A stretch of 64,000 nucleotides of DNA from Pyropia yezoensis (lineage: Eukaryota > Rhodophyta > Bangiophyceae > Bangiales > Bangiaceae). The DNA is taken from NCBI GenBank assembly GCA_009829735.1, contig CM020619.1, positions 13,135,777-13,199,776 of the forward strand, written 5' to 3'. Shown piece after piece: positions 5,421 through 53,277 of this stretch. The position numbers and the translations under genes are program-made. The notes beneath the pieces are model-generated. The model searched no databases and was not told the DNA's origin. It saw only the letters and a list, made by a program, of their open reading frames with translations. Position 1 is the first letter of the stretch. The number at the start of each line of letters is the position of its first letter.

Positions 5421-5429
5421 AATTATTTT

Positions 5430-7591: not shown

Positions 7592-7919
7592 AGGACTGCT
7601 GTAATGGTAATTGATACAACTACCGACGCCTCCACCGACTGCCACGTCCGTCGCCTCCATCTCCACCGACTGCCACGTCCCGGGTGGCCGGTGCACGCAT
7701 AATGGATGTGCGGCGACCCGGCCGGGTGGGGATCCGGCCAGCCGGGTCCGCGAAAGACTTTGCCGTGGGCGGCTCCCTCCATGCGCCCGCGAGCGGGGAT
7801 TCCGCGCGGTGTGGCGATACGTCCATCCTACCGTGCACGCCGCCTCCTTCCTCTGGGGAGGGGGGCGCCCGCCCGAACCGCCGGTGCGGTATTTCCAGCC
7901 GTGCTGGTGCCGCTCTTGA
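7592..7919 (+). repeat. dispersed repeat, copy C (longest copy)
   Basis: Shows the whole unit: AT-rich lead, duplicated CGACTGCCACGT, the core, the CGCGGTGTGGCGATACG block, the CTCTGGGGAGG and GCCGGTGCGGTATTTCCAGCCG blocks, then GACGCGTCGCC running straight into a long C tract. It ties together copies A and B, the tail at 3513-3632 and the inverted copy D. Confidence 0.85.
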
Positions 7920-7924
7920 CGCGT

Positions 7925-7926
7925 CG

Positions 7927-7982
<56 letters not shown>

Positions 7983-8006
7983 ACCCCCCCCCCCCTCCCC
8001 CCCCCG

Positions 8007-8040
<34 letters not shown>

Positions 8041-8041
8041 C
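7925..8041 (+). repeat. poly-C tract of about 110 nt
   Basis: Almost pure C, interrupted by single A, T or G at a few places. It starts directly after repeat copy C. Its true length is uncertain because such runs assemble poorly. Confidence 0.9.
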
Positions 8042-9399: not shown

Positions 9400-9443
9400 G
9401 AGTCACCGTGATAAATTCTGAAAATCTGTGATAAAATCTGACC
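9400..9443 (+). repeat. transposon left terminal inverted repeat
   Basis: Starts GAGTCACCGTGATAAATTCT. It contains two direct TGATAAA motifs and is preceded by TGT. Confidence 0.92.
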
Positions 9444-9505
9444 GGACCGTCGGCGACAGAGAGAGAATACGGAGCAGATACAAGAACAAAAAAATCATAT
9501 CTCGT

Positions 9506-11161
9506 CTACTCCGTGTGCTTAGGTACATCTGAACAGACCACATTATGCGCACTCACCAGCGCCTTGCCTTCACTGATTTTCAAGCACTGGGAGCAAACAC
9601 GGAATGCCGCGCAGGCGCACACGTGCCAATCCTTGCCACCCCGATGTACCCGTTGGTTGCAGGCGCGGCAGACCAGCAGCAGCTTCTGCTCGGCCTCCTC
9701 CGCGCGCAGGGCAAGCTTGGCAGCCTTGTCCGCCTCCTTCTCAGCCGCGGCGGCCGCCTTGTCGGCCAGCGCCTTGGCGTCCGCGGCCACCCGCGCCTCG
9801 TGCTGGGCGATGAGGTCCTTGCCGCGATACACCTTGGCCTTTTTGACCACTGCCACGCCCGATACCACCTTTTTCTGGTCGGCCGTGCGTTGGTCATACG
9901 CCTGACGGATGACCACAGCCGCAGCCGCGCGTGATTGGTCAGCCACGCCGTCAGAAGGAAGCCCAATCCCATGGTTGACGCGCGCCGGCTCGATGACTCG
10001 CTTGCGGTCCCACGGGTAGAGGCCGACCGACTTGAACGCCGCCTGGATGGTCTCCCGGGTGAGGGCCAAGCGCTCCGCCTCGTATGCCGCCTCCAGGAGA
10101 GAGTCACGGGTCGGCTGGTTCGTCATGAGCGCCTGGATGATCTTGTCGTCGGACAGGACAGGGACGACCTTCTTGATCCGGGCAAAACACTTGTCATCGA
10201 GCACCTGCAGCCAGTGGGAGGTATTGGCGACCAACCACCAACACAACACGTTGCTCTTGAGAGCCGCGCGCACCACCTCGACCTGCCGGTGCGCTCCGAG
10301 CTGGTCCCCAATGAGCATACACTCCTGGTTAGGGTTGCGCAGGCGCCATTCGTCGCAAAAGGCCTTCATCACGACCGCAAACGTGGCCGCGTCGACAAAG
10401 CCCGACTCTGTGCACCCATACAGCCGCAGCCAGGTGCCCCTCGTCCGCTGCTGGACGCGTGACAGGGTGAAACGCGTGGCTGCCGCATCATTGTCCCCAA
10501 AGCGCGCGCGGAAGATATACACGGACAGGAAGGGAGCCCCATTTGCGGCCACAAAGCTCAATATGGAGGCCACAGTGGCCCACCGCGTGCTGGCAGCGTT
10601 TGGGCGCTCTCTGTCGGTAGCTTGGATGCGTTGCACGGCCAGCCGGTCGCGCCCCCCGACGAGGCGGCACTCATCGTAGTTGAGGATGGCAGAGGGGGGG
10701 AGGCGGTGGTCTTTCAAGAACTTCTCCACCTGGTCAGCCCAGTCGACGACCACCTCAAACATTGAGGTCGAGTTGCGCTTGTCGGCGAGGGCCTTGGCCG
10801 TGCGGGAGGAGAGGTGCTCCCGGTGACGCTTGACCCAAGACCGTGCCCACGTCTCGCCGACCTTCTTGCCCCACAGGTCCCGCACGAGGGAGGCCAGTTG
10901 CGGCCGGGTGAGGGGGAAGTTGGTGTGGCTGAAGGCCTGCACCGCGTACAGCAGCGCCAGGTCCTCCGCCGCCGACAGGATGTTGTTGCCATGGTGCACC
11001 CCCTCCCCCCCCCGGGCAGCGTAGTAGGCCGTCCTCAGCGCCCCCACAGTGAAGCCCGTGGACCCGTGAACGGCCAACAAAGCATCCTTGAGCAGCTCCC
11101 CGGCACGGACGCGCTCCATGATGAGCGGGACTGCTTTGGCGGTCGTCTTTGGCGCCTCCAT
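9506..11161 (-). CDS. pogo-like DDE transposase, 551 aa
   Basis: Catalyses cut-and-paste transposition of its element in the nucleus. The first ATG at 11161 follows a shorter GTG-opened extension. Visible parts in order: a CENP-B-type helix-turn-helix region (LASLVRDLWGKKVGETWARSWVKRH is its recognisable part, roughly residues 88-112), then the catalytic core with NYDECRL (first Asp), IGDQLGAHR (second Asp) and NTSHWLQVLDDKCFARIKK (third Asp), as in the DDE_1/pogo family. A Lys/Ala/Glu-rich coiled segment leads to a Cys-rich C-terminus with CRAC, HVCAC and CSQC, probably a zinc-binding module. The core has no stop or obvious loss. Pogo elements normally duplicate TA, so the flanking TGT is odd. 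Confidence 0.9.
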   Translation of the reverse strand: MEAPKTTAKAVPLIMERVRAGELLKDALLAVHGSTGFTVGALRTAYYAARGGEGVHHGNNILSAAEDLALLYAVQAFSHTNFPLTRPQLASLVRDLWGKKVGETWARSWVKRHREHLSSRTAKALADKRNSTSMFEVVVDWADQVEKFLKDHRLPPSAILNYDECRLVGGRDRLAVQRIQATDRERPNAASTRWATVASILSFVAANGAPFLSVYIFRARFGDNDAAATRFTLSRVQQRTRGTWLRLYGCTESGFVDAATFAVVMKAFCDEWRLRNPNQECMLIGDQLGAHRQVEVVRAALKSNVLCWWLVANTSHWLQVLDDKCFARIKKVVPVLSDDKIIQALMTNQPTRDSLLEAAYEAERLALTRETIQAAFKSVGLYPWDRKRVIEPARVNHGIGLPSDGVADQSRAAAAVVIRQAYDQRTADQKKVVSGVAVVKKAKVYRGKDLIAQHEARVAADAKALADKAAAAAEKEADKAAKLALRAEEAEQKLLLVCRACNQRVHRGGKDWHVCACAAFRVCSQCLKISEGKALVSAHNVVCSDVPKHTE

Positions 11162-11215
11162 AGCGAAGATAGTCACTCGTGTACCTCGGAGATACGACTG
11201 TTTGGGCTGGAGACA

Positions 11216-11259
11216 GGTCAGATTTCATCACAGATTTTCAGAATTTATCACGGTGACTC
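11216..11259 (-). repeat. transposon right terminal inverted repeat
   Basis: The reverse complement matches 9400-9443 over 44 bp with one A/G difference. TGT follows directly at 11260. Confidence 0.92.
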
Positions 11260-11262
11260 TGT

Positions 11263-11991
11263 CAAATCATTCACGAGGACCGTCACGACAAAGGCGTTGC
11301 TCAAAAAGTGCATTAAATTGAACCGACGGTGCACGCGTTGGACGGGCGGCACCGTCCTGGTGGAAAACCATTCTTTCCATTTTGTATATCCAACTGGCGC
11401 GTGCCTGCGGACTCCACACACACACACTGGCAGCGCACGTGCCCCGCTTGCTGTCACCGGCGCCGGCAGCAACAAACGCACGAACTCGAGGGCTTCTGAC
11501 GTGGCACGACCCGCCCGCCCCCCTCCCCCCACTCCCCCCCTTCCTGTGCGTGTGCGTCGAGGCACGCGGCTCCTCGTCCTCGCCCCGCTCCCCTCTTCCG
11601 GGGGGTGCTTCCTGCCACCATCGGCGTGACGTCCGGCCCCCCCCCCCCCCTGCTCTAATTCTCGTGTCTGGGCCGCGGTCGTGTCGCGGGATCGAGAAGC
11701 GACCCATTTCACTGCCACCGGCCCAATCTCCCCTATTTACACACCCTCCCCGCCCCCTCTCCCTTTCGCGCACCGCCCTCCCCACTCCCCCCCGCACCCA
11801 TCTGTCGACCCCCCGACGCCGCCTCCCGGGTTGCCTTTCTTTTTCAACCTTCTTTGCCTCCACCCCCGAGGACAAACAACCTCCCCGCCCCCCCCCCCCC
11901 CCTGCCAACGACGCCGGCCTCCGTCACCCTTCGCGCGGCACGGACGACCGAGTGCCCTTTTTATACGCTGGGCTCTGCGCCGGGGTCAGGT
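11263..11991. other. intergenic or 5' leader of the ParB-like gene
   Basis: No gene recognised. It is C-rich on the plus strand from about 11500 onward. A TATA-like stretch (TTTTTATAC, 11958-11966) lies just before the ATG at 11992, too close for a usual promoter-plus-leader, so a chance match is possible. The frame used downstream stays open back to 11854. Confidence 0.35.
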
Positions 11992-12557
11992 ATGGAGTGT
12001 TCTGACCCCCCGCCATCCCCTCCGCCATCCGTTGGGGCGGCCAGTCCGCCCCTCGCGGACGACATGGACGTCGAGGACAACGGCCGGGAGGCCACACCGT
12101 CGCTGAGCTACGACGACGCTCTGCTGGACTTTGGCGACCTCGACGGTCGTGTCGACTCAACTTCGGTACCGGTACCGCCGTTGACGCAGCCGCAGCCCGG
12201 TGGGGTGGACGAGCCGGAGCTGGATGGGATCAGCAGCTCCTGTTTGGGCGGCGACGACAGAGCCGGTACCATCCAAGGGGACGAACGTCCGGGGAATCCC
12301 CTGGATGATCGTCCGCCACCGTGGCGGATCACGGACGGGCCCGACGCCGCGCCCGCCGGCGGCCCTATATCCCCGTTTTGCCCGGTTCAAGAGTCGGTGT
12401 CCCTTCGAGACATTGACATGCTTGGCGAGGGTGTGCGCGCGTCACGGGCCTACGTCATCGGCTTGTACTACGAGCAGTTTAAGCAGACGGGCTACTGCTG
12501 GGTAACAGGCTCCCTACGCGTGTGCGAACAAGGCGGGGATGACTTTGATAAGGACCC

Positions 12558-12645
<88 letters not shown>

Positions 12646-13500
12646 GACGGCGGTCAACGCCGAAAACGGTACTGGCTCATTCATGGTTACCACCGGTTTA
12701 CCGCCTTGATGCGTCACCTGAACGAGCGTCACCCACTCTCACGAGCGTCGGAGCTCTTTGCTGTCGTATCCCGTCGTGACGGGCGGCCACTGTCCAGGAC
12801 GGACATTATCGTCCTGGGCGGCGCCGCCAACTTTGTCACGGTGCGCACAGAGCCGATGAGTGCGCGTGACCACCTCACCTGGGCCATTGGGTGGGTGACG
12901 GCGCCCAACGACGCCACACTGGCCAGCGCGTACCACTGCATCACACCGGGCATGCCGCCAGCGGACCTGGCGAAAGCTGTTGGCTCGCTCATCAAGGAAG
13001 CACGCTCGCATGGGGCGGTGCCCCGTAGCATCACAACACAAAAGGAGTTGGGAGACGAGTCCCTGCGTAAGCTGCTCAGCTTGGGTGCCGCTGCCGTGAC
13101 AGAGCGTGAGTCCATCGAGCACATTGTCACCAAGCTGCAGGAGGAAGCCGCCGCCAAGGACAGGAACGAAGCCGCCGGGGGTGCTGCTGCGGCATGCTCT
13201 CGTGAGCCCCGCGGTGTGCGACGTCGTGCCGCGCGTGTCGCCGGCGGCCCTGTCAGTGGCGAGGACGACAACGACGACGATGAAGACGACGACGTATGTT
13301 ACGATTCCGACGATCACGATAGCGTCGACGGCGTCGATGGCGGTTCACGTGACTGTGGCAAGGGACCCGCCCGTGACGGCCGAGGCAAGCTACTGCGCCA
13401 GCGCGCGAACAGGACACTCGCGTTTGGGGCACTTGGGTCCATCCCGTTCTTCCATCTTCCCGGAGTGCCGCAGCTGAGAGGAACTTTGCACGTGTGCTGA
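11992..13500 (+). CDS. ParB-like domain protein (first exon of a larger gene?)
   Basis: The ATG at 11992 is the first in frame that begins natural-looking sequence (MECSDPPPSPPP, then DDMDVEDN). Residues 1-150 are acidic and low complexity. Residues about 150-320 form a conserved-looking domain: SRAYVIGLYYEQFKQTGYCW and GSLRVCEQ, an inserted 30-residue Gly run (GGC repeat), then YWLIHGYHRFTALMRHLNE. The last resembles the I-x-G-x-x-R box of ParB/sulfiredoxin-like folds; the family match is inferred from this motif and the preceding strand-helix layout. GAANFVTVRTEPMSARDHLT follows. The C-terminus has a DDNDDDEDDD stretch. The stop at 13498 may be read past by splicing, because coding-like sequence continues downstream on this strand. 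Role: possible DNA-binding or NTP-binding partner of the modification enzymes downstream. Confidence 0.5.
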
Positions 13501-13550
13501 TGGTCGATACGTCTTGGGCGTAGTCCGCGTGGTTCACAGCAGACGGCCAC

Positions 13551-14100
13551 ATGAACCGTCTGACTCGGGGCGCGGACAGCCCGTTTGACTGGTGCGTATT
13601 GATTTTCATCATGCACGTCATCAACACGGTCACCGCTGAGCGCTTGTATCGGATCACCCGTGGTGGAATGGAGCAGCATAAGCAACTCGAGCCACACACC
13701 ACGGGGGAGGGGGAGGGGGGGGTTGGGCGCGTGCAGCCTGCGACGGTCGACAAGGTGCAGACGACCTCGGCGACGGCGGAGGCAAAGTCGTTTCCTGCAC
13801 GCCACGCACAACTCGCCCTCGACGACGAGGCGGCGTCCGCATTGCAAGTGCTGCAGCAGCGCCGGCCGGGCCGCTCGCGGATGCTTCGGCACGAGTTGAT
13901 CGGCGTTTTCGTACGCCACTACACGTGCGAAGAAATGATGGCCACGGTGGAGAGAGTAAACAAGGTCACTGGCCAGCGCAAGACTGTCCTACAACACGGA
14001 GGCGGGAGGGATGGTGCCCAAGTTCGTCATCGGCCGTGTATGACTGTCCTTTTTGCTGCGTGGGCCAAGGACTTTGACGCAATTGTCCAGACAGAGCCGC
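13551..14100 (+). CDS. probable internal exon, unrecognised
   Basis: Reads as ordinary protein: FDWCVLIFIMHVINTVTAER, LYRITRGGMEQHKQLE, LALDDEAASALQVLQQRR, LRHELIGVFVRHYTCEEMMA. No domain recognised. It lies 50 nt after the stop of the ParB-like ORF, on the same strand in another frame, and before the Ala/Pro-rich exon, which suggests spliced exons of one gene. Exon ends are not determined. Past about 14100 the frame degrades into His/Cys-rich shadow. Confidence 0.35.
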
Positions 14101-16566
14101 CGCCACCACCACCGCCGCCGCCGACGAGCACAATTGCAGAGGACAATTCTGGCGACCGCTGCTGCTGCGGCCGCTGCCACAGCAACTGCAGGCAAGGTGC
14201 GGCCGGTACAGCAGCAGCAGCCCCAGGTCACAGTCATTCCCGCTGTGAATGCTGACGTCGGCGGCAACGAAAGGGCCGCCAGTGACACCCAGCGGTACGG
14301 CGGCGACGCCAGAGATCGTGACGAGGCGGACTGTGGCGGTGGTGGACACGACAAGAGCCACGGCTCCGGCGACGCCGCGGCCTCGCGGTCGGACTGTTTT
14401 GAGACGCCCGTGGAGACGGTGCGGCGGCCGCTCGTTCCCGCCGTTTTGACGCAGGTAGACGACCAGCTTCGGTCATCACCGTCCTCACCGCCGCCGGCCC
14501 AGTCGCCGACACGGGCTCTGTCGGCCGAACCGCCGGAGGCACCTGCAAATCCCGAGGATGCGCCCGCAGCACCAGCAGCAGCACAGGCAGCAGTACCGGC
14601 AGCAGCACCGGCAGCAGCACCGACAACCGTACCGGAGGGAACAACAGCAACAGCATCATCGCGTGCAGCCGAGGCAGAAGCCAGAGGAACAGCTGCGAGC
14701 GCCTTGGCGGGTACTGCGGCTGCGGCTTCGGCTGCTGCTGCCGATTCCGGTGCCAGTGCCGGTGCAGGTGCCCGTTCTGGTCCGGCGAGTGAGGGTGCTG
14801 GTTCTGATGCAGGTGTGCGCGCAGCAGCAGCACCCGAACCAGCACCTGCAGCAACAACACCAGCAGCACCAGAACCAACACCGGCAGCGCCTGCACCAGC
14901 AGCACACGCACCAGCAGCACCAGCACCAGCAGCACCCGCACCAGCAGCACCCGCACCAGCAGCACCCGCACCAGCAGCGCCGGCAGCGCCGGCAGCAGCC
15001 GTCGCAGAATATACGGATACAGCAGCGAGCGCTTTGGCGGCTGCTGCGGCTGCGGCTGAGGCTGCCGGTGCCGGTCCCCGTGCAGGTGCTCGTGCCGCTG
15101 CCGCTGCCGCCGCAGCTGCCGCTGCCTCTGCCGCTGCCGCTGCCGCTGCTGCGGGTGGTAGTGGTGGGTCGGCGGATGGCTCGACGTCGGCCACCCCATT
15201 TCGGGGGCGCCACGCCCGCAGCGCCGCCAATCGGGCGACGCGACAAGCGTCCGTGGCGGGGGCGGCACACGGCGGCGGTGGTGGGTCCAGACCACTGACC
15301 AAGAAGAAAGCGCGCTCCAACCGTGCGCGCCGCCCTCAGGCCAAGGCGACTGCCAACGCGGCCGACAAGAGCGACGGGGAGTCCAAGCGCACGCAGCGCG
15401 GATCCAGCAAGGCCACGCGTGGCGCGGGCAAGAACCAAGTGGGTGGAAGCCCCGAAGAAGCAGGGCGTGCTGCTCCCTCGGGCGGCGGTGGGGTAGACCC
15501 TTCGACGCGGCCGTACACCGATACGATGCCGCCAGTGGCGGCCTCCCGAGCACTCGACGCTACTGCGAGGCGGGCGGCGCTTGGTTGCCCTCTACCACCG
15601 CCGCGCTTGGAGGTGGCTGCTACTGGTGCTGCTGCTGCTGACGAGGAGGAGCAGGAGGACGCGCGCGTGGCGCCACCGCCGGCGCCGCGGGGAGAGGTAC
15701 TGCCTCCATTTGCGGCGCTGTTGCCGCTGAAGCACCAGGCGCGGGACTTTCTGGAGCTGGGCGTCTGGTACGACGCGGACGCCCGGGCGAGGGCGTACAT
15801 GGTCAACGCGGGCGCACGGGTTGCGCTGGGCGCCAAGGCCGACACAAACGTCATGTCGTCGGGCTGGCCCGAGAAAGTCTTGTCCATTTTGGAGACGACG
15901 GCCGCGTCAGTGCTTTCGACCGAGCTTTTTGAGCGCGGCTGGGCGATTCTCCAGGGCGCCACCGCCGTAGGTATGCCTGTCATGCACATGGCCGACGACG
16001 ACGGCGGGGGCGGCGGTGGGGGTGGCGGCGGTATACATGCTGCGGCGGGGCAGCCCTCGCGGCTGAAAGCCCGCCCTAGGGCGGAGTCGGGCACGGGGAC
16101 GGCGGGACGGGTGTTGAGCGTTGTGGACGCGACGCGGCACGAGCTCATGCGCAGTTTTCCTGAGGAGGCAGAGCTGGCGAGACGGGCCAAGCAGGGGCAG
16201 CGGCGGGGTGCCAGTGCAAGGCGCAGTCGGAAGGGCGACACTGGTCACGTCGCTGCTGGGGGTCGCGGTACTGTTGCGGGTGATACACCCCCCGGTGCAG
16301 ACGACGGGGGGCTGCACGTGGATGACCTGTGGTCGCCCATCATCAACACCAACATTGATTCGCTGGACCGCAAGTTCACGAGCAAAGGGCAAGCCCGGCA
16401 AACCGTAGGGGTGGACGCGCCCTGCAGCTCAGACGACAACGAGCGTCACAGCCTGTACCTGTGCAAGTTGGCGGCCGATGTGGGTATGGTGGCCCTGGCG
16501 TACAAGGTCCTTCGCGGCCTTCAGAGGGTTGAAGCGGCACGCCGCGAGCACTCGCAGCTGCCCTAA
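14053..16566 (+). CDS. Ala/Pro-rich exon with a C-terminal folded region
   Basis: The 5' limit is uncertain (no clear ATG). Residues up to about 380 are Ala/Pro/Thr low complexity, with an APAAPAPAAP repeat near 14890-15000 and an Ala run near 15110-15160. A basic stretch (TKKKARSNRARRPQAKA) could be a nuclear localisation signal. From about 15700 the sequence looks folded: LPLKHQARDFLELGVWYDAD, KVLSILETTAASVLSTELFE, then after another Gly run LWSPIINTNIDSLDRKFTSK and LYLCKLAADVGMVALAYKVL. The stop at 16564 is followed in the same frame by the dioxygenase-like segment, so this is probably upstream sequence of the same protein. Confidence 0.45.
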   Translation: MLRGPRTLTQLSRQSRRHHHRRRRRAQLQRTILATAAAAAAATATAGKVRPVQQQQPQVTVIPAVNADVGGNERAASDTQRYGGDARDRDEADCGGGGHDKSHGSGDAAASRSDCFETPVETVRRPLVPAVLTQVDDQLRSSPSSPPPAQSPTRALSAEPPEAPANPEDAPAAPAAAQAAVPAAAPAAAPTTVPEGTTATASSRAAEAEARGTAASALAGTAAAASAAAADSGASAGAGARSGPASEGAGSDAGVRAAAAPEPAPAATTPAAPEPTPAAPAPAAHAPAAPAPAAPAPAAPAPAAPAPAAPAAPAAAVAEYTDTAASALAAAAAAAEAAGAGPRAGARAAAAAAAAAAASAAAAAAAAGGSGGSADGSTSATPFRGRHARSAANRATRQASVAGAAHGGGGGSRPLTKKKARSNRARRPQAKATANAADKSDGESKRTQRGSSKATRGAGKNQVGGSPEEAGRAAPSGGGGVDPSTRPYTDTMPPVAASRALDATARRAALGCPLPPPRLEVAATGAAAADEEEQEDARVAPPPAPRGEVLPPFAALLPLKHQARDFLELGVWYDADARARAYMVNAGARVALGAKADTNVMSSGWPEKVLSILETTAASVLSTELFERGWAILQGATAVGMPVMHMADDDGGGGGGGGGGIHAAAGQPSRLKARPRAESGTGTAGRVLSVVDATRHELMRSFPEEAELARRAKQGQRRGASARRSRKGDTGHVAAGGRGTVAGDTPPGADDGGLHVDDLWSPIINTNIDSLDRKFTSKGQARQTVGVDAPCSSDDNERHSLYLCKLAADVGMVALAYKVLRGLQRVEAARREHSQLP

Positions 16567-16584
16567 GCCCGGCCCGGTCGGAAC

Positions 16585-18387
16585 CTGATTCCCGCCACGT
16601 CCACGCGGCCCGTCCCCGGGCCTACCGAGCAGCACTTTCTCGGCAGCCGAGACGACGCACTGCCACCGCTTCGCGTTCGTGCTCCTCGGACGGGCTCGAG
16701 GGTGCTGCTGACGACTGCCGGCACAGTGCCACCGGTCCCGCACGTGGACTTGCCCGTTTGGTCGTCCGCCGAGTGTCGACAGCGTCGTCGCGGTGGCGGC
16801 GGCGGTGGTGGGCCGGGCGGGAGCGAGCGTCGCAAGGGCTCCTCCTTGCACGGGGCGCTTGGTGCCAGTGGCACTATGGACGATGATGGCAAATACGCCG
16901 ATGACGACGAGGACACTGGCATTGACGTGCAGGTGGTCTCTGATCCTGTGTACGAGATGCCTCTGACGAGAAGTTTTTTTGTTCTTGCGTCTGGGGCAGA
17001 CGCGTTTTTTCTGCGCGTCTGGCCGGGAAGCGTGCTGGCCTTGCAGCCGGAAGCCGACGACCCCACCTTACGCGACCAATTGGTAATGCCCATGACGTTG
17101 GTCGTGCCGCCCAACTCTTTCATCGTTGTTCGCAGTGAACTTGTGCACGGCGGCACAGGCGCCAAGGAAGACGTGTGGCGAGCGCACAAAGCCCTCGCGG
17201 AAGTGAGTTACCCGCGCAGCATCCGCCTCCACATGTACCTGCAGCACGAGGACGACCCGCTGTACGATGCAGTGTTTCTGCCTCTACGTGCAGGCGTGTC
17301 TCTCTCCCCCGAAGACGTGGCAGCCCGCCGCCGTCTCCGTGAGCGCGGCCGATGCACCGACTGCGGCCAGCGTGTCCCCGAAAACAAGGGTGGCGACGGT
17401 GATGGCGACGGTGACGGCGACAGCGGCGGCGACGTCGGCAGCGACAGCGGCGGCGACGTCGGCAGCGACGTCGGCAGCGACGTCGGCAGCGACAGCGGCA
17501 GCGACAGCGGCAGCGACAGCGGCAGCGACAGCGGCAGTGGCGTCAGCAGCGACAGCGACAGCAACAGGGGCAGCAACAGGGGCAGCCGCAGCGGCATCGG
17601 CAGCGGCAGCGACAACGACAGCATCAGGGGCAGCGGCAGCGGCAGCCGCAGCGGCAGCGGCAGCGACAGAGACAGCAACAGGGGTGGCGGCAGCGGCAGT
17701 CGCAGCGGCAGCGACAGCGACGGCGGCAGTGACGGCGGCAGTGGCGTCAGCAGCGACAGCGGCAGCGGCAGCGGCAGCGACAGCGACGGTGGCAGTGACG
17801 GCGACAGTGACGCCGACAGTGACGGCGACGACGGCAGCAACAGTGACAGCGTAAGCGAGTACGTCCTCGGCGCCGCTGACGGAACAGGCGGGCGTGTCGG
17901 CGACAGGAGTCCTGGCGCCCAACGTGTTACCTCAGCTGTTGGTCGTGCCAAGGGCAAGTGGCGAACAGCAGCGCCACCGCAATCATCCCGTGCCGTCAGC
18001 GGCGGCCATGGCCGCGGCGGCGGCGGCGGCGGCGGTAGAGCCAGAGACAGCAGCCAGCCGTCCGTCGAGGTGCCGTCGAGTGTAGCACGGCGGCGGTCCC
18101 CACGGCCCGAGCCCGAGGCCCGCGCACTGGAAAGCTCAACGACACCCCGGCGAGCAGCAACGTCCACGTCTGTGACCGGGACGACGCCGGCAACGGGGCC
18201 ACCGCAGCGTCCCGGACTCCCCGGACGACGGCCTTCGCCGGCATCCGCCCTCGCCCCTTCAACAAGATCACCTTCGCGACCACCCACAAAGCCGACGGGG
18301 TGCCACAAAGCCACCGAGTCGTGCACCGACGCTGGACGCCGCCGCACTCTCTGCGAGCCTCGCCGCCAGAATTGCTATCGACCGTGA
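16585..18387 (+). CDS. 2-oxoglutarate/Fe(II) dioxygenase-like domain plus Ser-Asp tail
   Basis: In this frame VPPVPHVDLPVW (16720-16758) supplies an HxD pair (His codon 16741). About 130 residues later VVRSELVHGGTG gives a distal His (codon 17146), and 26 residues on RSIRLHMYL gives an Arg (codon 17224). HxD, distal His and Arg in this order is the iron- and 2-oxoglutarate-binding signature of the double-stranded beta-helix dioxygenases. Such enzymes hydroxylate nucleic acid bases, histones or other proteins; the substrate cannot be read from sequence. Between them lie FFLRVWPGSVLALQ and LVVPPNSFIVV, typical strand-rich text. CTDCGQRV follows, then a Ser/Asp/Gly repeat of about 150 residues. 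The first codon is uncertain: the frame is open back to the stop at 16564. Confidence 0.5.
   Translation: MIPATSTRPVPGPTEQHFLGSRDDALPPLRVRAPRTGSRVLLTTAGTVPPVPHVDLPVWSSAECRQRRRGGGGGGGPGGSERRKGSSLHGALGASGTMDDDGKYADDDEDTGIDVQVVSDPVYEMPLTRSFFVLASGADAFFLRVWPGSVLALQPEADDPTLRDQLVMPMTLVVPPNSFIVVRSELVHGGTGAKEDVWRAHKALAEVSYPRSIRLHMYLQHEDDPLYDAVFLPLRAGVSLSPEDVAARRRLRERGRCTDCGQRVPENKGGDGDGDGDGDSGGDVGSDSGGDVGSDVGSDVGSDSGSDSGSDSGSDSGSGVSSDSDSNRGSNRGSRSGIGSGSDNDSIRGSGSGSRSGSGSDRDSNRGGGSGSRSGSDSDGGSDGGSGVSSDSGSGSGSDSDGGSDGDSDADSDGDDGSNSDSVSEYVLGAADGTGGRVGDRSPGAQRVTSAVGRAKGKWRTAAPPQSSRAVSGGHGRGGGGGGGRARDSSQPSVEVPSSVARRRSPRPEPEARALESSTTPRRAATSTSVTGTTPATGPPQRPGLPGRRPSPASALAPSTRSPSRPPTKPTGCHKATESCTDAGRRRTLCEPRRQNCYRP
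17390..17850 (+). repeat. Ser-Asp-Gly coding microsatellite (GGCAGCGACAGC units)
   Basis: Hexa- and dodecanucleotide units of the type GGCAGCGACAGC repeat over about 460 bp, encoding GSDS runs that drift into SRSGSGSD. All frames are open, so the shadows are long: Ala/Thr-rich forward, Leu/Pro-rich in reverse. Confidence 0.85.
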
Positions 18388-18389
18388 CA

Positions 18390-18922
18390 GAGTTGGGCGT
18401 CGCCCCCCTCCTCTTGCTCAGAGGCACTCGCCTGGTAGTGGCGGAGGTCCCAGTGGCAGCCGCGGCGGCGGCGGCGGTGGCGGCGGCGGCGGCGGCCGCG
18501 GTGCTAGCTCCCGCTCCGATGGTGGTGGCACCGGCCCGGCGACTAGAGTCGCTCGTCTGGCGTCTGGAGGTGTCAGTCACGGTAGCGTGCGCGCCAGTGC
18601 CGGTCGTGGCCGCGGCGGTGGAGGCAGCGGTGCGAGTAGCCTGGCCGGTCGCCCTGGGCATGGTGCCCGATTGCGACCCGGCGTCCGGGAGGACGGCCTC
18701 GACAAAGGGGAAGGCCGCAGCGCGAGTGCTGGTGGCGACAGTGCCCGAGGAGGTGGTGGTCGCCGCACCGAGGATGGTGGTCGTCGACTTGGTGGTGGTA
18801 GAGGCGGAAGGAAGCGCCCACGTGAGGACGATGAGACGGACGGGGACACGGGGCGGCCTCTGTCACGGACCGGCTCCGGCCGGCCGGCGGATGGAGGTCC
18901 TTCTAAGAGGCGCCCGATTTGA
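18390..18922 (+). CDS. RG-rich C-terminal exon
   Basis: Reads LDAAALSASLAARIAIDRDR into GSGGGPSGSRGG, a Gly run, ASAGRGRGGGGSG, then the acidic-basic end GGRKRPREDDETDGDTG and SKRRPI before a stop at 18920. Arg-Gly boxes and KRPRE-type clusters are common in nuclear, nucleic-acid-binding proteins. It is in the +1 frame relative to the preceding exon, so splicing or a length error must join them. Probably the C-terminus of the dioxygenase-like protein. Confidence 0.35.
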
Positions 18923-19472
18923 AAAAGGCGACCGCATGGGCCTCAGGCGGTCGCGCAGGGAGTGTGTCTGTTGACATGTGGAATGCCAGGGGAAGCTAGT
19001 TTGTGTGGCAGTGGTGGTCGTGGGGAGTGGTGCAGTTTTCTGTTTTGCATTTGTTTGTTTCCTGTGTTTGAACGACGGTGCGGGGGGATGACGGGGGGGT
19101 GTGTGGGTGGCAGGGTCGCCGAGGGCGCAAACCTGGGAACATCACACAGCTGCTCTGTACGTACTCGTCGGTTTCAATTCCCATTCAGTACACATATGGA
19201 TATCTTTTTAGATACAGTGACGCCGCACAGGATAGACATCGGCTGACAAGTGCATTCCGTTTTGAATGTATGAACTTGCGGCTTCACAGAAGCGCGCCAA
19301 ATGTCGGTCGACCCCGACATTCTGTCCGTGGGTGGCTGCGGTGCACACGACCCACCGCACTGCGACGCGGAACCGGTGCACACGACCCACCGCACTGCGA
19401 CGCGGAACTTACCGCGATCGTTTGCGGACCTTCACCCGCGCCGTGGCTCCGAGTGCAAGCCCGGCTGCCCGC
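18923..19472. other. intergenic region between the two modification genes
   Basis: Less GC-rich, with T-rich stretches (about 19030-19070 and 19170-19260). It contains a 35-bp tandem duplication (next entry) directly upstream of the ATG at 19473. No gene recognised. Likely 3' end of the upstream gene and promoter/leader of the next. Confidence 0.5.
19341..19410 (+). repeat. 35-bp tandem duplication
   Basis: Two copies, starting at 19341 and 19376, of a unit beginning GTGCACACGACCCACCGCAC. The second copy is nearly exact. Confidence 0.9.
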
Positions 19473-19789
19473 ATGGCCAACCTTTTGCCACCCTCGTGGC
19501 TCGTCCTCAGCGTCACGCGCATCGTCACCGCTTGCGCTGAGGCCGTGGTGGACGCCGCCGGTGATGGAGCGGACGCCCCCGCCGCTGACACCGCCGCCAC
19601 TGCAATTGGCGGCGCCACCGCCACCGGGACCGAACGCGGTGCCGGCGGCAAGAGGTCTGGGCCTGTGGAGGATCGTCGCAACCAGCCCGCTACCGCGGCG
19701 AGGCGCCCGGCAAAGCGGCGCGCCGGGGCGCCAAACGCTGTCCGAGACGATGAGCGGCGCGGGACAACCGGCGGCGGCGGCGGCGGCGT

Positions 19790-19828
<39 letters not shown>

Positions 19829-20615
19829 GCTGGACTTTCAGAGCGGATGTGGTTGCCGGCCTTCCCCTATTGCATGCATGGTCGTGCACGACGCATATCC
19901 CGCCCGCGCTATCACTGTCGGCCTCGCCGCGTTGCGCGACCTGTTTGTGCTGGACAAGGTGCGCATTGAGAAGTTGGACAATCCCGACGGCAATGGGGGC
20001 GGCCCGGTAGCTGCTGCTGTGCGGTCAGCGTGCGGAGGTGATTACAGTACGGCTCCGGGAGTGGCCGTACCCCGTCCGGCCGATGCGACACTCGAGGACG
20101 CGACGTGGCCGGCGGTCAAGCTTTGGGCCATCACGCTTACGCGCCCCCCTCCTCGGCACGCCGTCCAAGGCCAGCAGCAGCACCATCAGCAGCAGCGGCC
20201 GCCCCTCTCGTGGTCTGATTGGCCTCCCGAGGCCGAAAATGCGGTTGCCGGTACGTCCCCGACGTCGGGCCGCGTGCTCCACACGCCGCTGACGTGGTGG
20301 ATGGAGGGTTCCCACATCAAACGCATATACAGTGCGGTGTGGGTCTTGAAGAGGTTTGTGTCTTTGCCCCCGCTCGGCGGCGGGGACGCGCGCGGGCGGC
20401 GTCCCCGCCCGTCATCTGCGTGGCGCCGCGTGCTCGCCCTCCGCTCCGGGCGTGTGGACGTGTCACCGCCGTCGCGGCCGACGCCGCAGTTGCAGTCGCC
20501 GACGCGACGGCCACTGCCACCGCCGCTGCACCAAGAAGAGACCCGCGGTCTGCCCGGCTGTGTCGTCCACATGACAGACGCCAACCACGACGACGACAAA
20601 CGTTGCTGTTGTTGA
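19473..20615 (+). CDS. first exon of the methyltransferase-SET gene (inferred)
   Basis: The ATG at 19473 sits in a good context (GCATGG) and opens MANLLPPSWLVLSVTRIVTA, much more protein-like than the sequence before it. Then come an Ala/Gly region, a basic cluster ARRPAKRRAG (possible nuclear signal), a Gly run (GGC repeat), and a folded-looking part with FQSGCGCRPSPIACMVVHDA, RDLFVLDKVRIEKLDN and SHIKRIYSAVWVLKRFVSLP. No domain recognised. The stop at 20613 overlaps coding-like sequence in another frame, consistent with a splice donor shortly before. Linking it to the methyltransferase exon rests on strand, spacing and frame logic. Confidence 0.4.
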
Positions 20616-20828
20616 TTGTACGTCGGGCGACCCGTCGGTTGACGTCCGGGTGTGGCAAGCGGTCCTTGACGTTGGGACGCTGAAAGAAGCTGCCCTGGAC
20701 GTGGCCGCCCTGGCCGCGAGCTTACGTCATCGAGACGCATGTACCAGGCACGCGGCTGGCTGCGGGCATGGGGAGGAAGTTTCGCGTACCGCGGCATTCG
20801 CAGCCGCTGCGGAAAGCGCCGCGTGCTA
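20602..20828 (+). CDS. small internal exon
   Basis: In frame 1 the sequence reads VAVVDCTSGDPSVDVRVWQA, LDVGTLKEAALDVAALAASL, RHRDACTRHAAGCGHGEEV before a stop at 20826. This looks like real protein while the other frames do not. It overlaps the end of the preceding ORF by a few codons, so the true exon start is a splice acceptor near 20575-20600. Same frame as the next exon. Confidence 0.35.
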
Positions 20829-20925
20829 AGCCAGGCAAGAGACAAACACAGCCGGTCATAAACAAACCACAAATAGCGCCGCGCCGCCCGTTCTGCATCG
20901 CCCTGGTCCCGGACAGGGTCGGCAT

Positions 20926-21740
20926 GTGCCACACTCGACCTGTCGGCACCACGAGTCTTTTGTGACGTCGCAGCGCTCGCGCTTGGCGTCGCCGCAGCCG
21001 TTGCCACTGCCCGGCTGGCCGGGGTGGCAGACCGCTCGCCGGGGCGCTGCCCGGGGCCTGCAGCGAGTGGACGTGCTGACGCCAGACAAGCGGTTTCTTA
21101 CAGCCATTCTGGAGGGCGCCCTCGGCACCATCGCTTCTGAACGCGGCTGTGGTGCCGTTGATGGCGGCATGTGTGCTGGCAGCGCCAGCGACTCTGCCGC
21201 CGAACGCCAGCCCTGTTGTTGTGAGCGACTGCAGGCTGCTGCCGAGATGGAGCCTTTCGAGCTCCTACTGTGGCTCTCCTCGCTGCACCCGCTTGTCGCC
21301 GCCGATGCGGAAGAGCGGCGGCGGCTTGCACGACAGCGGCAGCAGCCAACAACACTACCGTTCCGCCCCGCGCGCCCGTCATCGACACCGACCCGCAAGC
21401 TGCAAGGCACACTTCCACCACCAATCGCCGCGCCTGCGGTACACAGCGACGGGCGCAGGAAGGCCTTTTCGTCATGGTGGGCCTGCGCGTCCACTGCTGC
21501 GGCTGCCGGAGCTGAGCCTCCCCCACATGGGCGAAAGCGTCCTCGTTCCGCCGTTAGGGGTACGGGCGTCCCAAGCAGCCCTGAACAGGGTGCTGACGCC
21601 GCGTGCGCTGCGCACCGGGAGGGGCTCGCCTTGTTGGCACTCAGCGCCACCGTTCGATGTGCTGCGACCGCCGTCGTGCGCTCCTGGGATGCCGTTGCAA
21701 GGCGCATCGGCTTTGAAGGCGTCGAGAACTGCCTCGCCCC
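20926..21740 (+). CDS. internal exon upstream of the methyltransferase exon
   Basis: Protein-like from about 21060: RVDVLTPDKRFLTAILEGAL, EMEPFELLLWLSSLHPLVAA, HREGLALLALSATVRCAATA, RSWDAVARRIGFEGVENCLA. It reaches a TAA at 21742 that lies just inside a GT-AG intron; removing that intron joins this frame to the methyltransferase exon. The 5' border is unknown: an acceptor such as the AG before 20966, 20981 or 21002 is possible. No domain recognised. Confidence 0.45.
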
Positions 21741-21869
21741 GTAACTCTTGTGGCACTCACGGTCGTGCGCGTTTACGACGCTGTCAGAACCGCAAGGTAC
21801 TGCCGGCGTTTTCGCGCCCGCTGCGCAGCGGTTCGACATTGCCCACGGGCTCCCCCACCCAACTTCCAG
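21741..21869 (+). other. predicted intron, 129 nt
   Basis: Starts GTAACT and ends in a pyrimidine-rich ACTTCCAG. Removing it takes out the only in-frame stop and keeps the reading frame: the last exon bases CC join G to make one codon. The length is divisible by three, so the stop inside it is the main evidence for splicing. Confidence 0.6.
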
Positions 21870-24800
21870 GGCCGACAGGGACGGGACTCCCGTCTGTACA
21901 GAGGCACTGCACCGCACCGCCGTCGCGGATGCACAGCTCCGCATGGCTGCTGCTCAATTTGTCTACCACATGGGGGAGGTGACGAAGCCCGAGCGACTCG
22001 CCGACGCGGCAGCCGCTCTGTTGGAAACAACTGCGATGCAGCAGCCGCAGCGGGGCCAGCCGCAGCGAGGACAGCATCTGCAAGCGCCTTCCCGCCCAGC
22101 CACCGCCACGGCGGCGGGTGCTCCACCACCGGCGTCGGCTGCGTCGGCGGTTGACGCGCTTCCTGCTGCCGTCAATGGGGAAGCAAAGCCGGGCTATTTG
22201 ACAACCACTGCATTTGTGGGCAGAGGACTGGCAGCACGCTGTCCGTGGGAGGTGGTGGGGGTGCCCCCAGTGCTAAACCCGACCGTCCGAGGCCTAACCG
22301 GCTTTCGGCCCGTCGTCGTCGATGCCGCAGGGGCAGCAGCGATGGGCACCATCCCGCCTGCGACGCCGGCCACCGCGGAGGAGAGGGGGGCGGGGGGGGG
22401 GGGGGGCGCCCCCGGGAGGATGCGTGCTTGTCGCGTGGAGGACGCAGGCGCCCGTGTGAGCCTGGTGAACCGCGCTCTTGCGCGCGACGCAGGCATCGCC
22501 GCAGCGCGTGCGGCGTTGGCTGCGGACATAAACCGGGGTGGCACGCCTGTCGCTGCTGCTGCTGTTGCAACACACGCCGCTCCCCGTGTGTGTGACGACG
22601 AGGACGACGGCGGCGGCGTGGGTGGTGGGCGTGCCACGCCCGTCAATGCCGCTGGGGGGCAAGGCCAGCCAGGACCGCGAGCAGCACAAGCAGCACGAAA
22701 AGCACCGGCAGCAGCGTTGAGGGCGCAGCCGGCAGCACCATCGCCTGTACCATCAGCAGCACCAACAGCGCCGGCCAGACGAGCGGCGTCCGTAGCCGGG
22801 GGGTCACCAGTGCTCCCTCCGCCAGTGCCTGGCCCCGAGGGCGGCTCTGCGGCAGCGTTGGGGAGTTGCAGGCCAGTCACCAACGACGACCCGTTGGCCC
22901 GTCACATCCGCACTGTGCAGACGGCCATGCGTGCCATTGTGCAAACGCATGTGTGCGACGTGGGGGACCTCGACAACACCCACAGCGCCGCCAACGAGGG
23001 TGCCCGCAGCAGCAGCAGCAGCAGCAGCAGCCGCATCAGAGGATGTGATGCTTGCCGCATTGGCCCCGACCTGCGTGGCGCTGTTCAGCTCGTGCTGTCC
23101 GACCCCCCTTACAACACCCGCCGTCTTCATGCAATGCCCAACTCTCATTACGACAACCTGTCGGAGGACATGCTGAAGAAGACCGTGTCGCGGATACACG
23201 ACTGGGTTCGTCCTGGTGGGCACGTGCTTCTATTTTGTAGCCCGATGCAGTTCCCGCTGTGGGTGACGCATCTGAGCGAGTTGGAGGACCCACTCCCGCC
23301 GACGGATGGTGACAAGGCAGCAGCCGTAGCTGCAGCTCCCGGCAGTGGGGAGGAACCAGTGTCTAGGGGTCACCGTGCGGCTGCTGCTGAGGCAGGGGCT
23401 GCAACGGGTGCTGCTCCTGATGCGCCCGACGGTGCTGTCGCCGCTACGACCACAGGTCCGCCAAGGACGACCGACCGCTCAGCTCCCGGTAGCGGCGGGG
23501 GTCGTGACCCCAACCGTGGCAGTGGCGGTGGCGGGCGGGGCGTCTGGGAACCTTCTGTTGGAGAACCACGGCAGCGAAAACGACGACGGCGAGCTACACC
23601 CGCTTTTCAGGTGGAATCGTGCCCCCTGTTGGCCGTTCTGGCGCCCAACGCGTGGGCACCGACAAGAAGGTTGTCGACGATGATGACCAACCGGTCCCAG
23701 TACGTGCTCCACGCGACCAGGAACGGAGCGCCCGCCGCGGCTGCCTACCGAGCTGTTAATTACCGCACGTTCAACGCCGTCCCGTCGCGCTTCCCCGCGC
23801 ACCACAACGTCATTCACAACGTGGTTCCCCTGCAGGATGTCGAGGTCGTTCGCTGGACGCCGGGGCTGAGGGAGTTGGTTGGGAAGCCGCAGCAGCAGGA
23901 GCAGCGGCAGAGCACCGGGCGGCCGGACACCGACGGCGGGAGCGGGGGCTGCGGCGACAGCGGCAATGAGAATATGGACAGAGACGGGGACAATACGCCG
24001 TGCGGCTCCGACGACGGGGCCGACGACGACGGAGAAGTGCCTGACCCCAACGATGATGTTGGCGACGACGACGATATGGATAGCGACGTTGCCGACGGCT
24101 CCGACACGGAGGGCGGCGACCAGGACGACACGGACGATGACGGCGACGACGACGACGACGGAAGCGACGTGAGCTGGAGCCTGGGCCCTCAAAGACGCAC
24201 GAAGCGCGGAGCACGCCCCCCGGAACGGGGAGGCGGTGCCGGTCGAAGCAGCGCGCGTGCACGTGCACGTGCGGGTGGTGGTGGTGCTGCCCCCACCGCG
24301 TCGGCGGGGGCGTCGGGGGGTGCTCTCGACGACGTCCCGCCTCGCGCTGGCCGACGCGTGGGTACTCGGCGTGCGTTGGACGCCGGTGCTCCGTCCAAGC
24401 TGGCCAAGCCGCGCTGCCCGCCGCATCCCACCTCCTCTGTGAAGCAGCGTCAGAAGGAGCTGCAGCCGCAGCAGCAGCAGACGTCACCATTGCGTCCTCC
24501 TTTTCGCCCTGCCCACCACAAGACACGCCCGCGCGCCCTTGTGCCACGAGTCCGAAGCGAGCAGAAGTCTGTCCTCTTCCTGTCCGAGTTGATCATGCGA
24601 ATGTCCAATGCGGACGACCTCGTCCTCGACATGTTTGCGGGCACGTGCTCCACCGCGATGGCCGCGATCAGGATGCCCAGCGGCCAGCATCGGCGCGTTG
24701 TTTGTGCCGACAGCGACCTGGCCGTCATTGCAGCGTCGCAGCCACGCCTGTTCCGAGAGTTTGTCGACCAGGTTGTTAGTGGCGGCTTCCGGTCGTGCCC

Positions 24801-26388
24801 CGACGTTACTGCAGAGGTGGTGCACGCTGCGCGAGAGGTGCTGGCAGCCAATGAGGCCGCCGCCGTCGCTGTGACAGGTGCTGCTGAAGGTGCTGGTGAC
24901 CTGGTCGTGGCCAAGACCGCCCCGCTGCTGCTGGCGCCGTCCTTTCAAACGACAGCCGCTGCCTGGGCGCGCGTGCCCGGCCAGCCGTGCTTCACGGCCC
25001 TGCCAGCACACATGCTCCTCCTGCTTGCCAACCGGTGGGCCGCACAAAATGATAACGAGCGAAGGGCGGGGTTCCACACGCACCCCCGCGCGCCTGTGCG
25101 CGGAGCTGTGGTCGGCGGAGTGGTCATTGGACTCGGCGGGTGTAGCGTGGGAGACTGGCCTCCTGACCTCGTTGCTCGCTTTGCGGTGGAGGACCACGAG
25201 CTGATGCTGGCTGTGGAGGCCGCTCACTACGGCGTCGTCGTCGCACATTCCCGCGTTGCGGGAGGCACCGCCGGGAGCGGCTTGTTTGCTGGACGCCGGT
25301 TCCGAAAGGGCGATACGATTTGCCCGTTCTACGGCGCGCTGACCACATGTAACCTGGCCAAACGTGGTATGACAAGGACCGACCGGTACGCGTCGCCGAC
25401 ACTGGGGGCCTTGGGACCTACGTCCAAGGCATTTTCCGAGAACGCCGTCAAGGTCCATATTCGACCTGAAGGAAGCATGGAAGGAGACGAAGGGCAGCGG
25501 GGGACAACGGGGCGACTCCGAATGGGACAACAGCGACAGCAGCAGCAGCACCCGGGCGGCCCGCAGCAGCAAAAGCAGCAGCACGAGCGTGACGGCGCGG
25601 AGGCGCAAGAGGAGCAGTGCCGAGCTCGGGAGGAGCTGGGCGAAGAAATCGTCGACGAGGACGAGGACCGGCCGCTCCGTGCGCGCAAGAGCCGGGTACA
25701 CTATGGCTCCGCTGTCGCCGCCTCGGCGACTTTCGCGTACATGATTCCCGCTGCCTGGTGTGTGGCGGGCCTGGTCAATGACGGGCGCCGGCAGACACGG
25801 CTGGAGCAGCAAGTTGGGGCAGCCACGGCCAAGAGCTTCTTGGACGTGCAGCAGGCTCCCGAGGCGGCGGCGTTTTTGCCTCCTGCCGGGCGACCACCGG
25901 GCGGTGTTACACGCAAGGGTGCTGCGAGTGTTGCTGTAGATTCCACTGCTGCTGCTGCTGTTGGTGCTGCCAGCGACTCCTCTGCAGTTGTTGCGGGTGC
26001 TGCTTTGGGCGGCCAGGATGTCAATGTCGAAATGAGTGTCAGGTGTCCCGGCGCTCACGGCCAAGACCCGACTCTGTCGGAGCTTGTGGAGCCGGGGGTC
26101 GTCGCCCTTGTCGCCACGCGGGACATAGGCCAGGGTGAGGAACTGCGTACTGATTACGGTACGTCCTACCGGTGGCTGACCTTGGACATCAGACAAGCCA
26201 TGTACGACGGCGACCGCGCTGGCGCATCGGTCCACGACGGCGGCAGCGGCAGCAGCACGAGCCGCCGGCGGGGCAGTGCAACAAGGCAGACCACTGTTCG
26301 CCACACAAACGCGGACAGAAACCGGGAGCGGACCGAAGCCGAAAATCGTCGCAGCACGCCTCACACGTTTGCGCCCATTCACGAGTGA
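21870..26388 (+). CDS. DNA amino-methyltransferase fused to a SET domain
   Basis: Two catalytic modules in one open frame. The N-terminal part carries LVLSDPPYNTRR (DPPY at 23101-23112), catalytic motif IV of N6-adenine/N4-cytosine DNA methyltransferases, followed by HYDNLSEDMLKKT and HDWVRPGGHVLLFCSP. Motif I comes later as DLVLDMFAGTCSTAMAA (about 24616-24666), preceded by EQKSVLFLSELIMRMS. This order (IV before I) is the beta-class, N6_N4_Mtase arrangement of bacterial and phage enzymes. An acidic, low-complexity insert (about 23930-24180) and a basic stretch lie between. The C-terminal part is a SET domain: GLFAGRRFRKGDTICPFYGA (25279 on), GLVNDGRRQ (25771 on) in place of the usual NHS, and GEELRTDYGTSYRW (26134-26175). 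It could methylate DNA and histone lysine in the nucleus. Gln- and Ala-rich linkers and a 12-nt CAG/AGC run (23006-23030) show repeat growth. The SET half is eukaryotic in type, which suggests capture and fusion. Confidence 0.85.
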
Positions 26389-26978
26389 GGCCGCGGCCCG
26401 GCCACGGGTGCAGCCCCGCCAGCTCACCGACCGAGCGTCGGGGGCCTTTATTCCCGGCCACCACACCCAGTGGCCACGCACTCTCACCCGTACTGTCACC
26501 GCTACCGGGGCAGTGGCTTGGGCGTTGCGGGCACCTAGTGGCGCTGAATGGCGGTACCGGCGGCGCGCGGTGGGGCCCATGACAGGTGCTGGGACGGACA
26601 TGCGGAGAGGGGGGTTAGGGTTGAGTGTGGAGTTGTGGGGGGGGAGGGCACGGGAAGCGGCGCGTCGCGTACGTGGGGCAGCTCCGTTCAGTGCCACACG
26701 ACCTCATTCCCAACGGGAGCTCGCCTTGAGCTGCAATGACAAACGCGATGGGAGCGGGGCTTGACACGGGGAGCGGGGCTGGGCAGGGTGGTGAGGGAGG
26801 GGCGGGGGAGGGGTTGCGGGAGGGGTTGGGGGAGGGGGGGTGAGGGGGAAGGGGGGGGCAGGGGGGGCCCGTCTGCAAGCCGAAACGTCTGCCGACACTT
26901 CCTCGTGGACGGTAGGGCGGGGGGGGGGGGGGGGGCGGGACCCGACCTTGTCCACGTCCGCGGGCAACCTCAGGCGGG
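26389..26978. other. 3' flank of the methyltransferase-SET gene
   Basis: No gene recognised. G-rich tracts occupy 26760-26870, and a G run of about 18 nt (26918-26936) directly borders dispersed repeat copy D. Confidence 0.5.
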
Positions 26979-27178
26979 GAGCCGCCCACGGCAAAGTCTT
27001 TCGCGGACGCGGCTGGCCGGATCCCCACCCGGCCGGGTCGCCGCATATCCATTATGCGTGCACCGGCCACCCGGGACGTGGCAGTCAGCGACGAACGTGG
27101 CAGTCGGCGGTGGCGTCGGGTCGCCGCATATCCATTATGCGTGCACCGGCCACCCGGGACGTGGCAGTCGGTGGTGGC
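26979..27178 (-). repeat. dispersed repeat, copy D (inverted, core partly doubled)
   Basis: Reverse-orientation copy: GCCCACGGCAAAGTCTTTCG, GGCTGGCCGGATCC and CCATTATGCGTGCACCGGCC are the complements of the core blocks. The segment GGGTCGCCGCATATCCATTA with its continuation occurs twice (from 27035 and 27118), an 83-bp duplication. On the far side is an AT-rich stretch (27179-27256) with two ACAATCGAT motifs. Read in the repeat's own orientation the copy again ends next to a C run. Confidence 0.85.
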
Positions 27179-52990: not shown

Positions 52991-53022
<32 letters not shown>

Positions 53023-53258: not shown

Positions 53259-53277
53259 CCGGGGAGCACGTCTCGCG

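Follow-up and report, generated by a model that had tools for sequence, protein, structure and literature searches.

The DNA analysed here is a 64,000-nucleotide stretch, called the window throughout (C2:13135777-13199776), of the Pyropia yezoensis genome, which comprises 107.5 Mb in three scaffolds, C1 to C3 (43.59, 34.33 and 29.39 Mb), and has a reported GC content of 65% (PMC7423979). On the plus strand of the window lie two genes, one running from a ParB-like domain to a putative 2-oxoglutarate (2OG)-Fe(II) oxygenase and the other joining a DNA methylase to a SET domain. We found that both belong to a long dispersed repeat; W is the window's own family and A a related one, of which a copy at C2:12.17 Mb has both genes open.

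Two genes of fused domains

Gene 1 (11992..17370, plus strand) begins with a ParB/Srx-like region (~12370-12960) carrying HGYHRF, the equivalent of a DGxHR box, at 12682..12699 and ends in a putative oxygenase region (~15720-17310) whose HxD...H...R signature spans 16741..17241 (HVD, 16741-16749; VHGGTG, 17143-17160; IRLHMYL, 17221-17241). Gene 2 (20200..26388, plus strand) leads from an N-terminal domain (~20200-21740, matched to relatives by eye) through a methylase, with DPPYNT at 23101-23118 and FAGT at 24628, and a SET domain, from GSGLFAG at 25273 to the end of GEELRTDYG at 26160, to a C-terminal tail with STPHTFAP at 26353-26376, all on the plus strand. Every motif coordinate in the original prediction (ParB-like, HxD...H...R, DPPYNT and SET) was reproduced. 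Its division into three or four consecutive genes, with the ParB-like and 2OG domains on separate ones, had to be corrected to two genes, ParB-2OG and methylase-SET, as a single gene carries the first two domains at its opposite ends in the C2:12.17 Mb copy and in the protein P0014.

No stop interrupts either gene in that A copy. Its gene 1 frame has 2,012 codons, with the ParB-like domain leading and the 2OG-like domain at the end, and gives ~1,720 amino acids from the likely start (1,688 translated); its gene 2 frame counts 1,501 residues from stop to stop and comprises the N-terminal domain, the methylase and SET. The same architectures recur in two proteins encoded on unplaced public contigs, P0014 (1,376 amino acids) for gene 1 and P0009 (1,350 amino acids) for gene 2, and our guess is that they come from another Bangiales alga. 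Compared with the A frames and these relatives, gene 1 of the window copy is interrupted by in-frame stops at 13498-13500 and 16564-16566, and gene 2 by one at 21742-21744. A broken copy is a likelier explanation for these stops than introns, and the window's W copy is probably no longer functional.

The methylase prediction is firm. The window open reading frame (ORF) 21745-26385 matches PF01555 at 35.8 bits against a cut-off of 26.7 (E 1e-8), with relatives down to E 2e-12, and the phage-type profile phrog_67 matches P0009 at E 1.2e-20 and the A copy at E 2.6e-16; a tblastn search of phages with this domain gave two distant matches only. Among solved structures, the best matches were RsrI and DpnA, then CcrM among others. 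Motif IV (DPPY) precedes motif I (FAGTC in the window, FGGTG in P0009), which is the beta-class order, and the DPPY/DPPF motif suggests an adenine target and N6-methyladenine (6mA) as the product.

The claim that this methylase is fused to a SET domain held up, and the SET assignment is a reasonably good one by sequence comparison: the window domain scores 22.0 bits against a cut-off of 22.4 (E 2.3e-4), that of the A copy exceeds the PF00856 cut-off (23.4 bits, E 8.2e-5), and the solved-structure matches are to SETD8/KMT5A (E 0.002-0.01). P0009 gave no SET profile match at E 1. Genome SET matches were rejected as a marker of the family, being within 4 kb downstream for only 3 of 38 methylase matches. 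Many SET matches lie in ORFs of ~250-345 amino acids away from methylase matches and possibly constitute a separate repeated SET family.

For gene 1, profile searches found no family match to either the ParB-like or the 2OG region in the window copy, and the other eight ORFs of the cluster gave nothing in Pfam at E 0.1. As bare patterns, the two motifs are near chance in the window and insufficient alone: the loose HxD..H..R pattern has 46 occurrences, compared with 25-38 for every one of 10 Markov-shuffled windows; [LIV]xGxHR occurs nine times, a number equalled or exceeded by 25 of 50 shuffles; and H[GD]xHR[FLY], tightened to fit the box, occurs twice, equalled or exceeded by 1 of 50. Both labels could thus be motif coincidences on a fast-evolving gene with some other fold, a reading also favoured by the lack of any Pfam match for either domain and of any match to P0014 in three libraries. 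We consider this rather unlikely, because the motifs are conserved in diverged copies and in a protein from another source, which places them above chance: the HxD, H and R residues do not vary among W, A and P0014, and neither do the L..G.HR..A columns, between lineages of only 21-42% identity.

The ParB-like profile phrog_1033 also speaks against coincidence, matching all five A copies tested (E 2.6e-5 to 0.012). Other comparisons of the ParB-like domain gave NCBIfam DGQHR at E 0.006, far under its cut-off, and Pfam DndB at E 0.11, with no Pfam ParB match in gene 1; the window region had no homologue among the 8000 candidates scored, and phages and plasmids yielded nothing better than E 0.3, the top two plasmid matches being annotated ParB/RepB/Spo0J. 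A search of solved structures with the ParB profile was disregarded, its matches being dominated by glycine/serine linkers. Thus, of the ParB-like domain originally predicted, a fold weakly suggested by profile matches in family A stands, with no family match in the window copy. Of the predicted dioxygenase, the conserved HxD/H/R triad stands, with neither profile nor fold to add to it and no tblastn match in phages, and the domain, identified by that motif alone, is a putative oxygenase.

A long dispersed repeat in two families

PF01555 has 38 matches genome-wide, distributed over all three scaffolds, 36 of them above the cut-off. Sequence was fetched around 11 of the 38, and all copy counts given here are lower bounds.

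The W element is more than 25 kb in size. Its visible part, delimited by DNA matches and repeats, occupies 1..27165 (plus strand), with a right limit at or beyond its last 39-bp repeat, and because 13 matches at other loci begin at query position 1, W continues to the left of the window. Positions 1-3012 and 3513-9399 match at least 21 loci (window included) at ~86-98% identity, on all three scaffolds and both strands. The region 12300-26388 is matched over its full length and collinearly, with insertions, at C1:34843458-34867068 (88-93%; 5 of 1500 candidates scored) and partially at C1:21.77, C2:5.66 and C3:16.92 Mb (90-97%; a lower bound, from the same 5 of 1500). Upstream of six of the eight W-type methylase matches, the window's included, the W left part lies on the same strand; this count used 38 of 143 W-left matches and 23 of the 38 methylase matches, omitting the 14 with A gene 1 and C2:10751365, and the window's own locus, absent from the listed matches of 12300-26388, was entered by hand.

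Five copies of a 39-bp repeat were seen in W where none is expected. They form an inverted set, minus on the left (1026..1064; 6136..6174, with 3 mismatches; 7672..7710, with 1 mismatch) and plus on the right (27044..27082 and 27127..27165), and positions 26389-27165 were assigned to W from these repeats alone. Their folding is no better than that of shuffles (z -1.2 and -0.1). On the left, 2702..3012 (plus strand) is a left-module remnant common with family A, with 85% DNA identity to L046:1000-1307 and 70% at the protein level over 95 residues. The adjoining 500 bases, 3013-3512, had no match in a DNA search of the alga's own genome, both flanks matching at 100%; by eye, some other W copies have a 2-3 kb module at this junction.

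The A unit was read over 31.8 kb, a minimum, with no end reached. Its gene 1 is present at no fewer than 22 distinct loci on all three scaffolds (main pieces 91-96% alike), and in DNA searches pieces of the unit longer than 2 kb are ~88-97% alike among copies, mostly above 90%. Left module, RING region, gene 1, methylase and right part are ordered alike at C3:14.68-14.71 and C3:25.74-25.78 Mb, and tblastn recovered the order ParB-like, 2OG-like, methylase, SET at other loci in the genome. A gene 1 lies upstream on the same strand for 14 of the 38 methylase matches, at a distance of 3.9-5.4 kb in 13 cases and of 25 kb in the remaining one, and both gene-1 domains occur in six of the eight A-type copies with upstream sequence (L024, L026, L030, L034, L036 and L038). 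The co-occurrence count took all 38 methylase and all 36 SET matches, and from the other lists the longer pieces only: 28 of at least 156 left-module matches, 29 of 93 gene-1 matches (the rest of the 93 mostly short and of low complexity), and 25 of 135 and 7 of 42 A-unit DNA matches (the rest of the 42 mostly gypsy copies).

Besides the two core genes, the A unit has a RING gene (zf-RING_2, E 3.6e-8), a gene 3 (minus), a gene 4 (plus) and a left module consisting of an inverted gene pair, possibly TFIIB/cyclin-like on the basis of a weak TFIIB-repeat match (E 0.058) in one ORF of the pair. Arrays of ~350-bp units precede gene 1 and separate gene 3 from gene 4, the left module holding a single inverted unit, and the hairpin in the array unit folds better than shuffles (z -4.2). 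An apparent chimera at C2:7503410-7508465 combines the W left part with the left module of A; A gene 1 and methylase follow downstream.

These counts bear out a conserved same-strand unit, as had been proposed. Absence of such adjacency from other places had been named as grounds for rejecting the proposal; adjacency instead recurs at many loci of the same genome, since gene 1 with methylase and W left part with methylase are found on the same strand elsewhere. The cluster looks like the multicopy element's own gene content and not like a host operon.

The A copies decay within their family, under older constraint. With an uninterrupted A copy as reference, the ratio of nonsynonymous to synonymous substitution rates (dN/dS) for gene 2 is 0.56-1.08 in seven other A copies, each with 1-6 stops, and that for gene 1 is 0.56-0.88 in five A copies, two of which have a stop. 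Between lineages it is 0.23-0.40, values that are rough because dS is saturated and only alignable codons (105 to 1,332) enter. Decay within the family together with constraint between lineages is the pattern expected of mobile elements. In a tree of the methylase domain, A stands apart from W, P0009 and several further lineages, and the distant prokaryotic relatives (23-44%) fall far outside. W groups with P0009, a grouping that is unsafe because both are long branches.

One alternative is that a host multigene cluster was spread by segmental, partly subtelomeric, duplication and not by transposition. Seven of the 38 methylase matches lie less than 300 kb from a scaffold end, against ~0.6 expected (1.8 of 107 Mb): C2:3535, only 3.5 kb from the scaffold start; C1 at 43.55, 43.56 and 0.23 Mb; and C3 at 29.31, 29.33 and 29.37 Mb. 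Some of these score equally on C1 and C3, as duplicated ends would. However, the other 31 matches are internal, the same long unit is mostly more than 90% identical at scattered sites, and the stops and within-family dN/dS values are ill-suited to a maintained host family, so that we find this explanation quite improbable.

Much the same holds for a degenerate endogenous large DNA virus, or an element derived from one, with the copies as integrated viral fragments. Methylase, SET, RING and cyclin-like genes are typical viral accessory genes, and a long multi-gene unit with a RING gene, SET and a methylase of phage-type profile would suit such an origin. Yet two pattern-based scans of IMG/VR viral contigs confirmed no relative, there are dozens of collinear dispersed copies, and no capsid or polymerase match was found in the ORFs scanned, which were a selection (the ends are unread, and no genome-wide search for DNA polymerase or capsid families was made). 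We therefore rate a viral origin as improbable too.

Carriage by a large mobile element, as originally suggested, is probable for what is a dispersed multicopy repeat. No reverse transcriptase or tyrosine recombinase is tied to the unit; the 13 PF00589 matches in the genome all lie at least 45 kb from the listed copies, whose outer parts are unread and may hold diverged recombinases.

Other elements in the window

Nested within the span of W at 9400..11259 (minus strand) is a pogo-like DNA transposon that is not part of it, with 44-bp inverted terminal repeats whose arms are 98% complementary. Its DDE_1 ORF (9509-11224, minus; PF03184, E 6.8e-6) was rejected as the element's transposase because it has these inverted repeats of its own.

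To the right of W, a gypsy element (27906-43095) starts with the first of its two 371-bp long terminal repeats (LTRs; 27906-28276 and 42726-43095, 99.2% alike) and contains a 3.9-kb direct duplication (28591-32460 and 32961-36823, 98.6%). A Ulp1-type peptidase ORF (42832-46056, minus; Peptidase_C48, E 1.1e-13) has its last 88 codons inside the right LTR. The gypsy and Ulp1 genes were rejected as members of the unit, the gypsy element having its own LTRs. Ulp1 matches at L028 and L041 were rejected as Ulp1 genes, the matched residues being gypsy LTR; the LTR pieces there adjoin the methylase of two A copies without visible gene 1.

Farther right, a 3' remnant of an A-like element occupies 50911..55727 (plus strand), with 74-79% DNA identity to the A copy and up to 84% in single array pieces. 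It comprises the end of gene 2 (~50916), gene 3 (51238-52419, minus), a hairpin repeat (~53855-53935) and gene 4 (53799-55727). The hairpin, the counterpart of that in the A array, also folds better than shuffles (z -3.6), and translated short pieces near it (~53823-53966) mostly resemble the A array at 72-95%, with many above 90%. Just left of the remnant is an 890-amino-acid open frame (48197-50869, plus) with a weak PIN-like match (E 0.012). A second gypsy-type element, with a sub-threshold chromodomain match (E 0.0034), fills 55730-64000; its family appears to interrupt the A copy at L044:1829.

Proposed function and known systems

On balance, we favour a model in which a very large, probably mobile, dispersed element has this cluster as its coding core, and in which its writer and ParB-oxygenase proteins direct chromatin control at the element itself. 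The methylase-SET protein would mark element DNA with 6mA and also the histones on the element, the ParB-like protein would bind the element's DNA or load onto it, perhaps at the repeats, and opposing methyl marks would be removed by the oxygenase. In this way the element would govern its own chromatin in the face of host silencing. The original prediction of a module of writer, eraser and DNA reader is retained as a conserved unit of fused genes; the eraser is unproven, and a joint epigenetic function of the two proteins is what we infer.

Several results weigh against this model. The SET domain has ND in place of the usual NH (VNDGR instead of NHxC), and the phrog_1033 match is absent from the window copy and from the whole of P0014. 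The 2OG region has no family match and no oxygenase among its solved-structure matches, and its structure prediction failed (pLDDT 35.3); we call the oxygenase putative. Gene 1 is also not a constant companion of the methylase: tblastn of eight A-type copies found neither of its domains in L028 and L041, none was found in L032, the stretch upstream of the diverged copy in L033, the C2:10.75 Mb copy keeps the left part without gene 1, and near C1:8.11 Mb gene 1 is on the opposite strand. In the lists used, 18 of the 38 methylase matches have neither A gene 1 nor the W left part upstream (17 of the 18 checked for W). Finally, DNA searches found no element end or target-site duplication in A or W, and the A and W ORFs scanned, a selection with the ends unread, hold no transposase apart from the nested DDE_1.

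The same enzymes could also act to silence the element, as copy-number control or quiescence, or to label self DNA against a ParB-like nuclease, rather than to open chromatin. We regard this as possible though distinctly less probable than the model above. Nicking is reported for the ParB domain of Bce_0392, whose fusion partner is an adenine methylase (PMC5512222), and a bdelloid amino-methylase is proposed to act with SETDB1 in silencing (PMC8885841), whereas 6mA accompanies permissive chromatin in other eukaryotes (PMC12695648). A bolder version of self-directed control, which we hold to be unlikely, is a giant mobile element of a new eukaryotic class, equipped with its own chromatin and partition kit: the ParB-like protein would load at the A hairpin array or the W 39-bp repeats and deliver the oxygenase, the methylase-SET protein would place linked marks on DNA and histones in a single step, and the element would set and clear its own state.

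A single chain writing both a DNA and a histone mark would make the coupling of 6mA and histone methylation directly testable. Since the seaweed has chromosome-scale scaffolds and dozens of copies of the fusions, self-marking could be seen in native long reads. If the unit is mobile, it would add to the very large transposons a lineage from algae that apparently carries chromatin control as its cargo. No unit with these fusions was described in the literature searched by titles and starts of abstracts, mostly outside subscription journals, and published parallels cover parts of the proposed mechanism.

Fungal KDZ transposons with TET/JBP are DNA transposons carrying 2OG oxygenases that act on DNA bases; in contrast, the Pyropia ORFs scanned hold no KDZ transposase, and the oxygenase-like domain matches no family. 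Retrotransposons with DNA methyltransferases are likewise multicopy mobile elements with their own DNA-modifying enzyme, for which self-methylation is proposed (PMC5890265). Their enzymes are cytosine C5 methyltransferases; the dinoflagellate elements described there are LINE and DIRS elements with reverse transcriptase, and Dam-like adenine enzymes in DIRS are also mentioned, whereas the Pyropia unit has a beta-class amino-methylase fused to SET beside ParB-2OG. The bdelloid N4CMT resembles gene 2 in joining an N6_N4 methylase of bacterial type to a eukaryotic chromatin domain; as described in PMC8885841, its partner is a chromodomain reader, its gene was horizontally acquired and its product is 4mC (N4-methylcytosine), whereas gene 2 has a SET writer as partner and a DPPY/DPPF motif and lies inside a repeat. 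In phages, ParB-methylase fusions, like polyvalent proteins (PMC12704722, PMC5512222), also bring a ParB fold and an N6_N4 methylase together on mobile DNA; the terms "dioxygenase" and "SET domain" have 0 occurrences in PMC5512222, as does "dioxygenase" in PMC12704722. In these phage systems ParB is fused to the methylase itself, whereas in Pyropia the partner of the ParB-like domain is a putative oxygenase and that of the methylase is SET.

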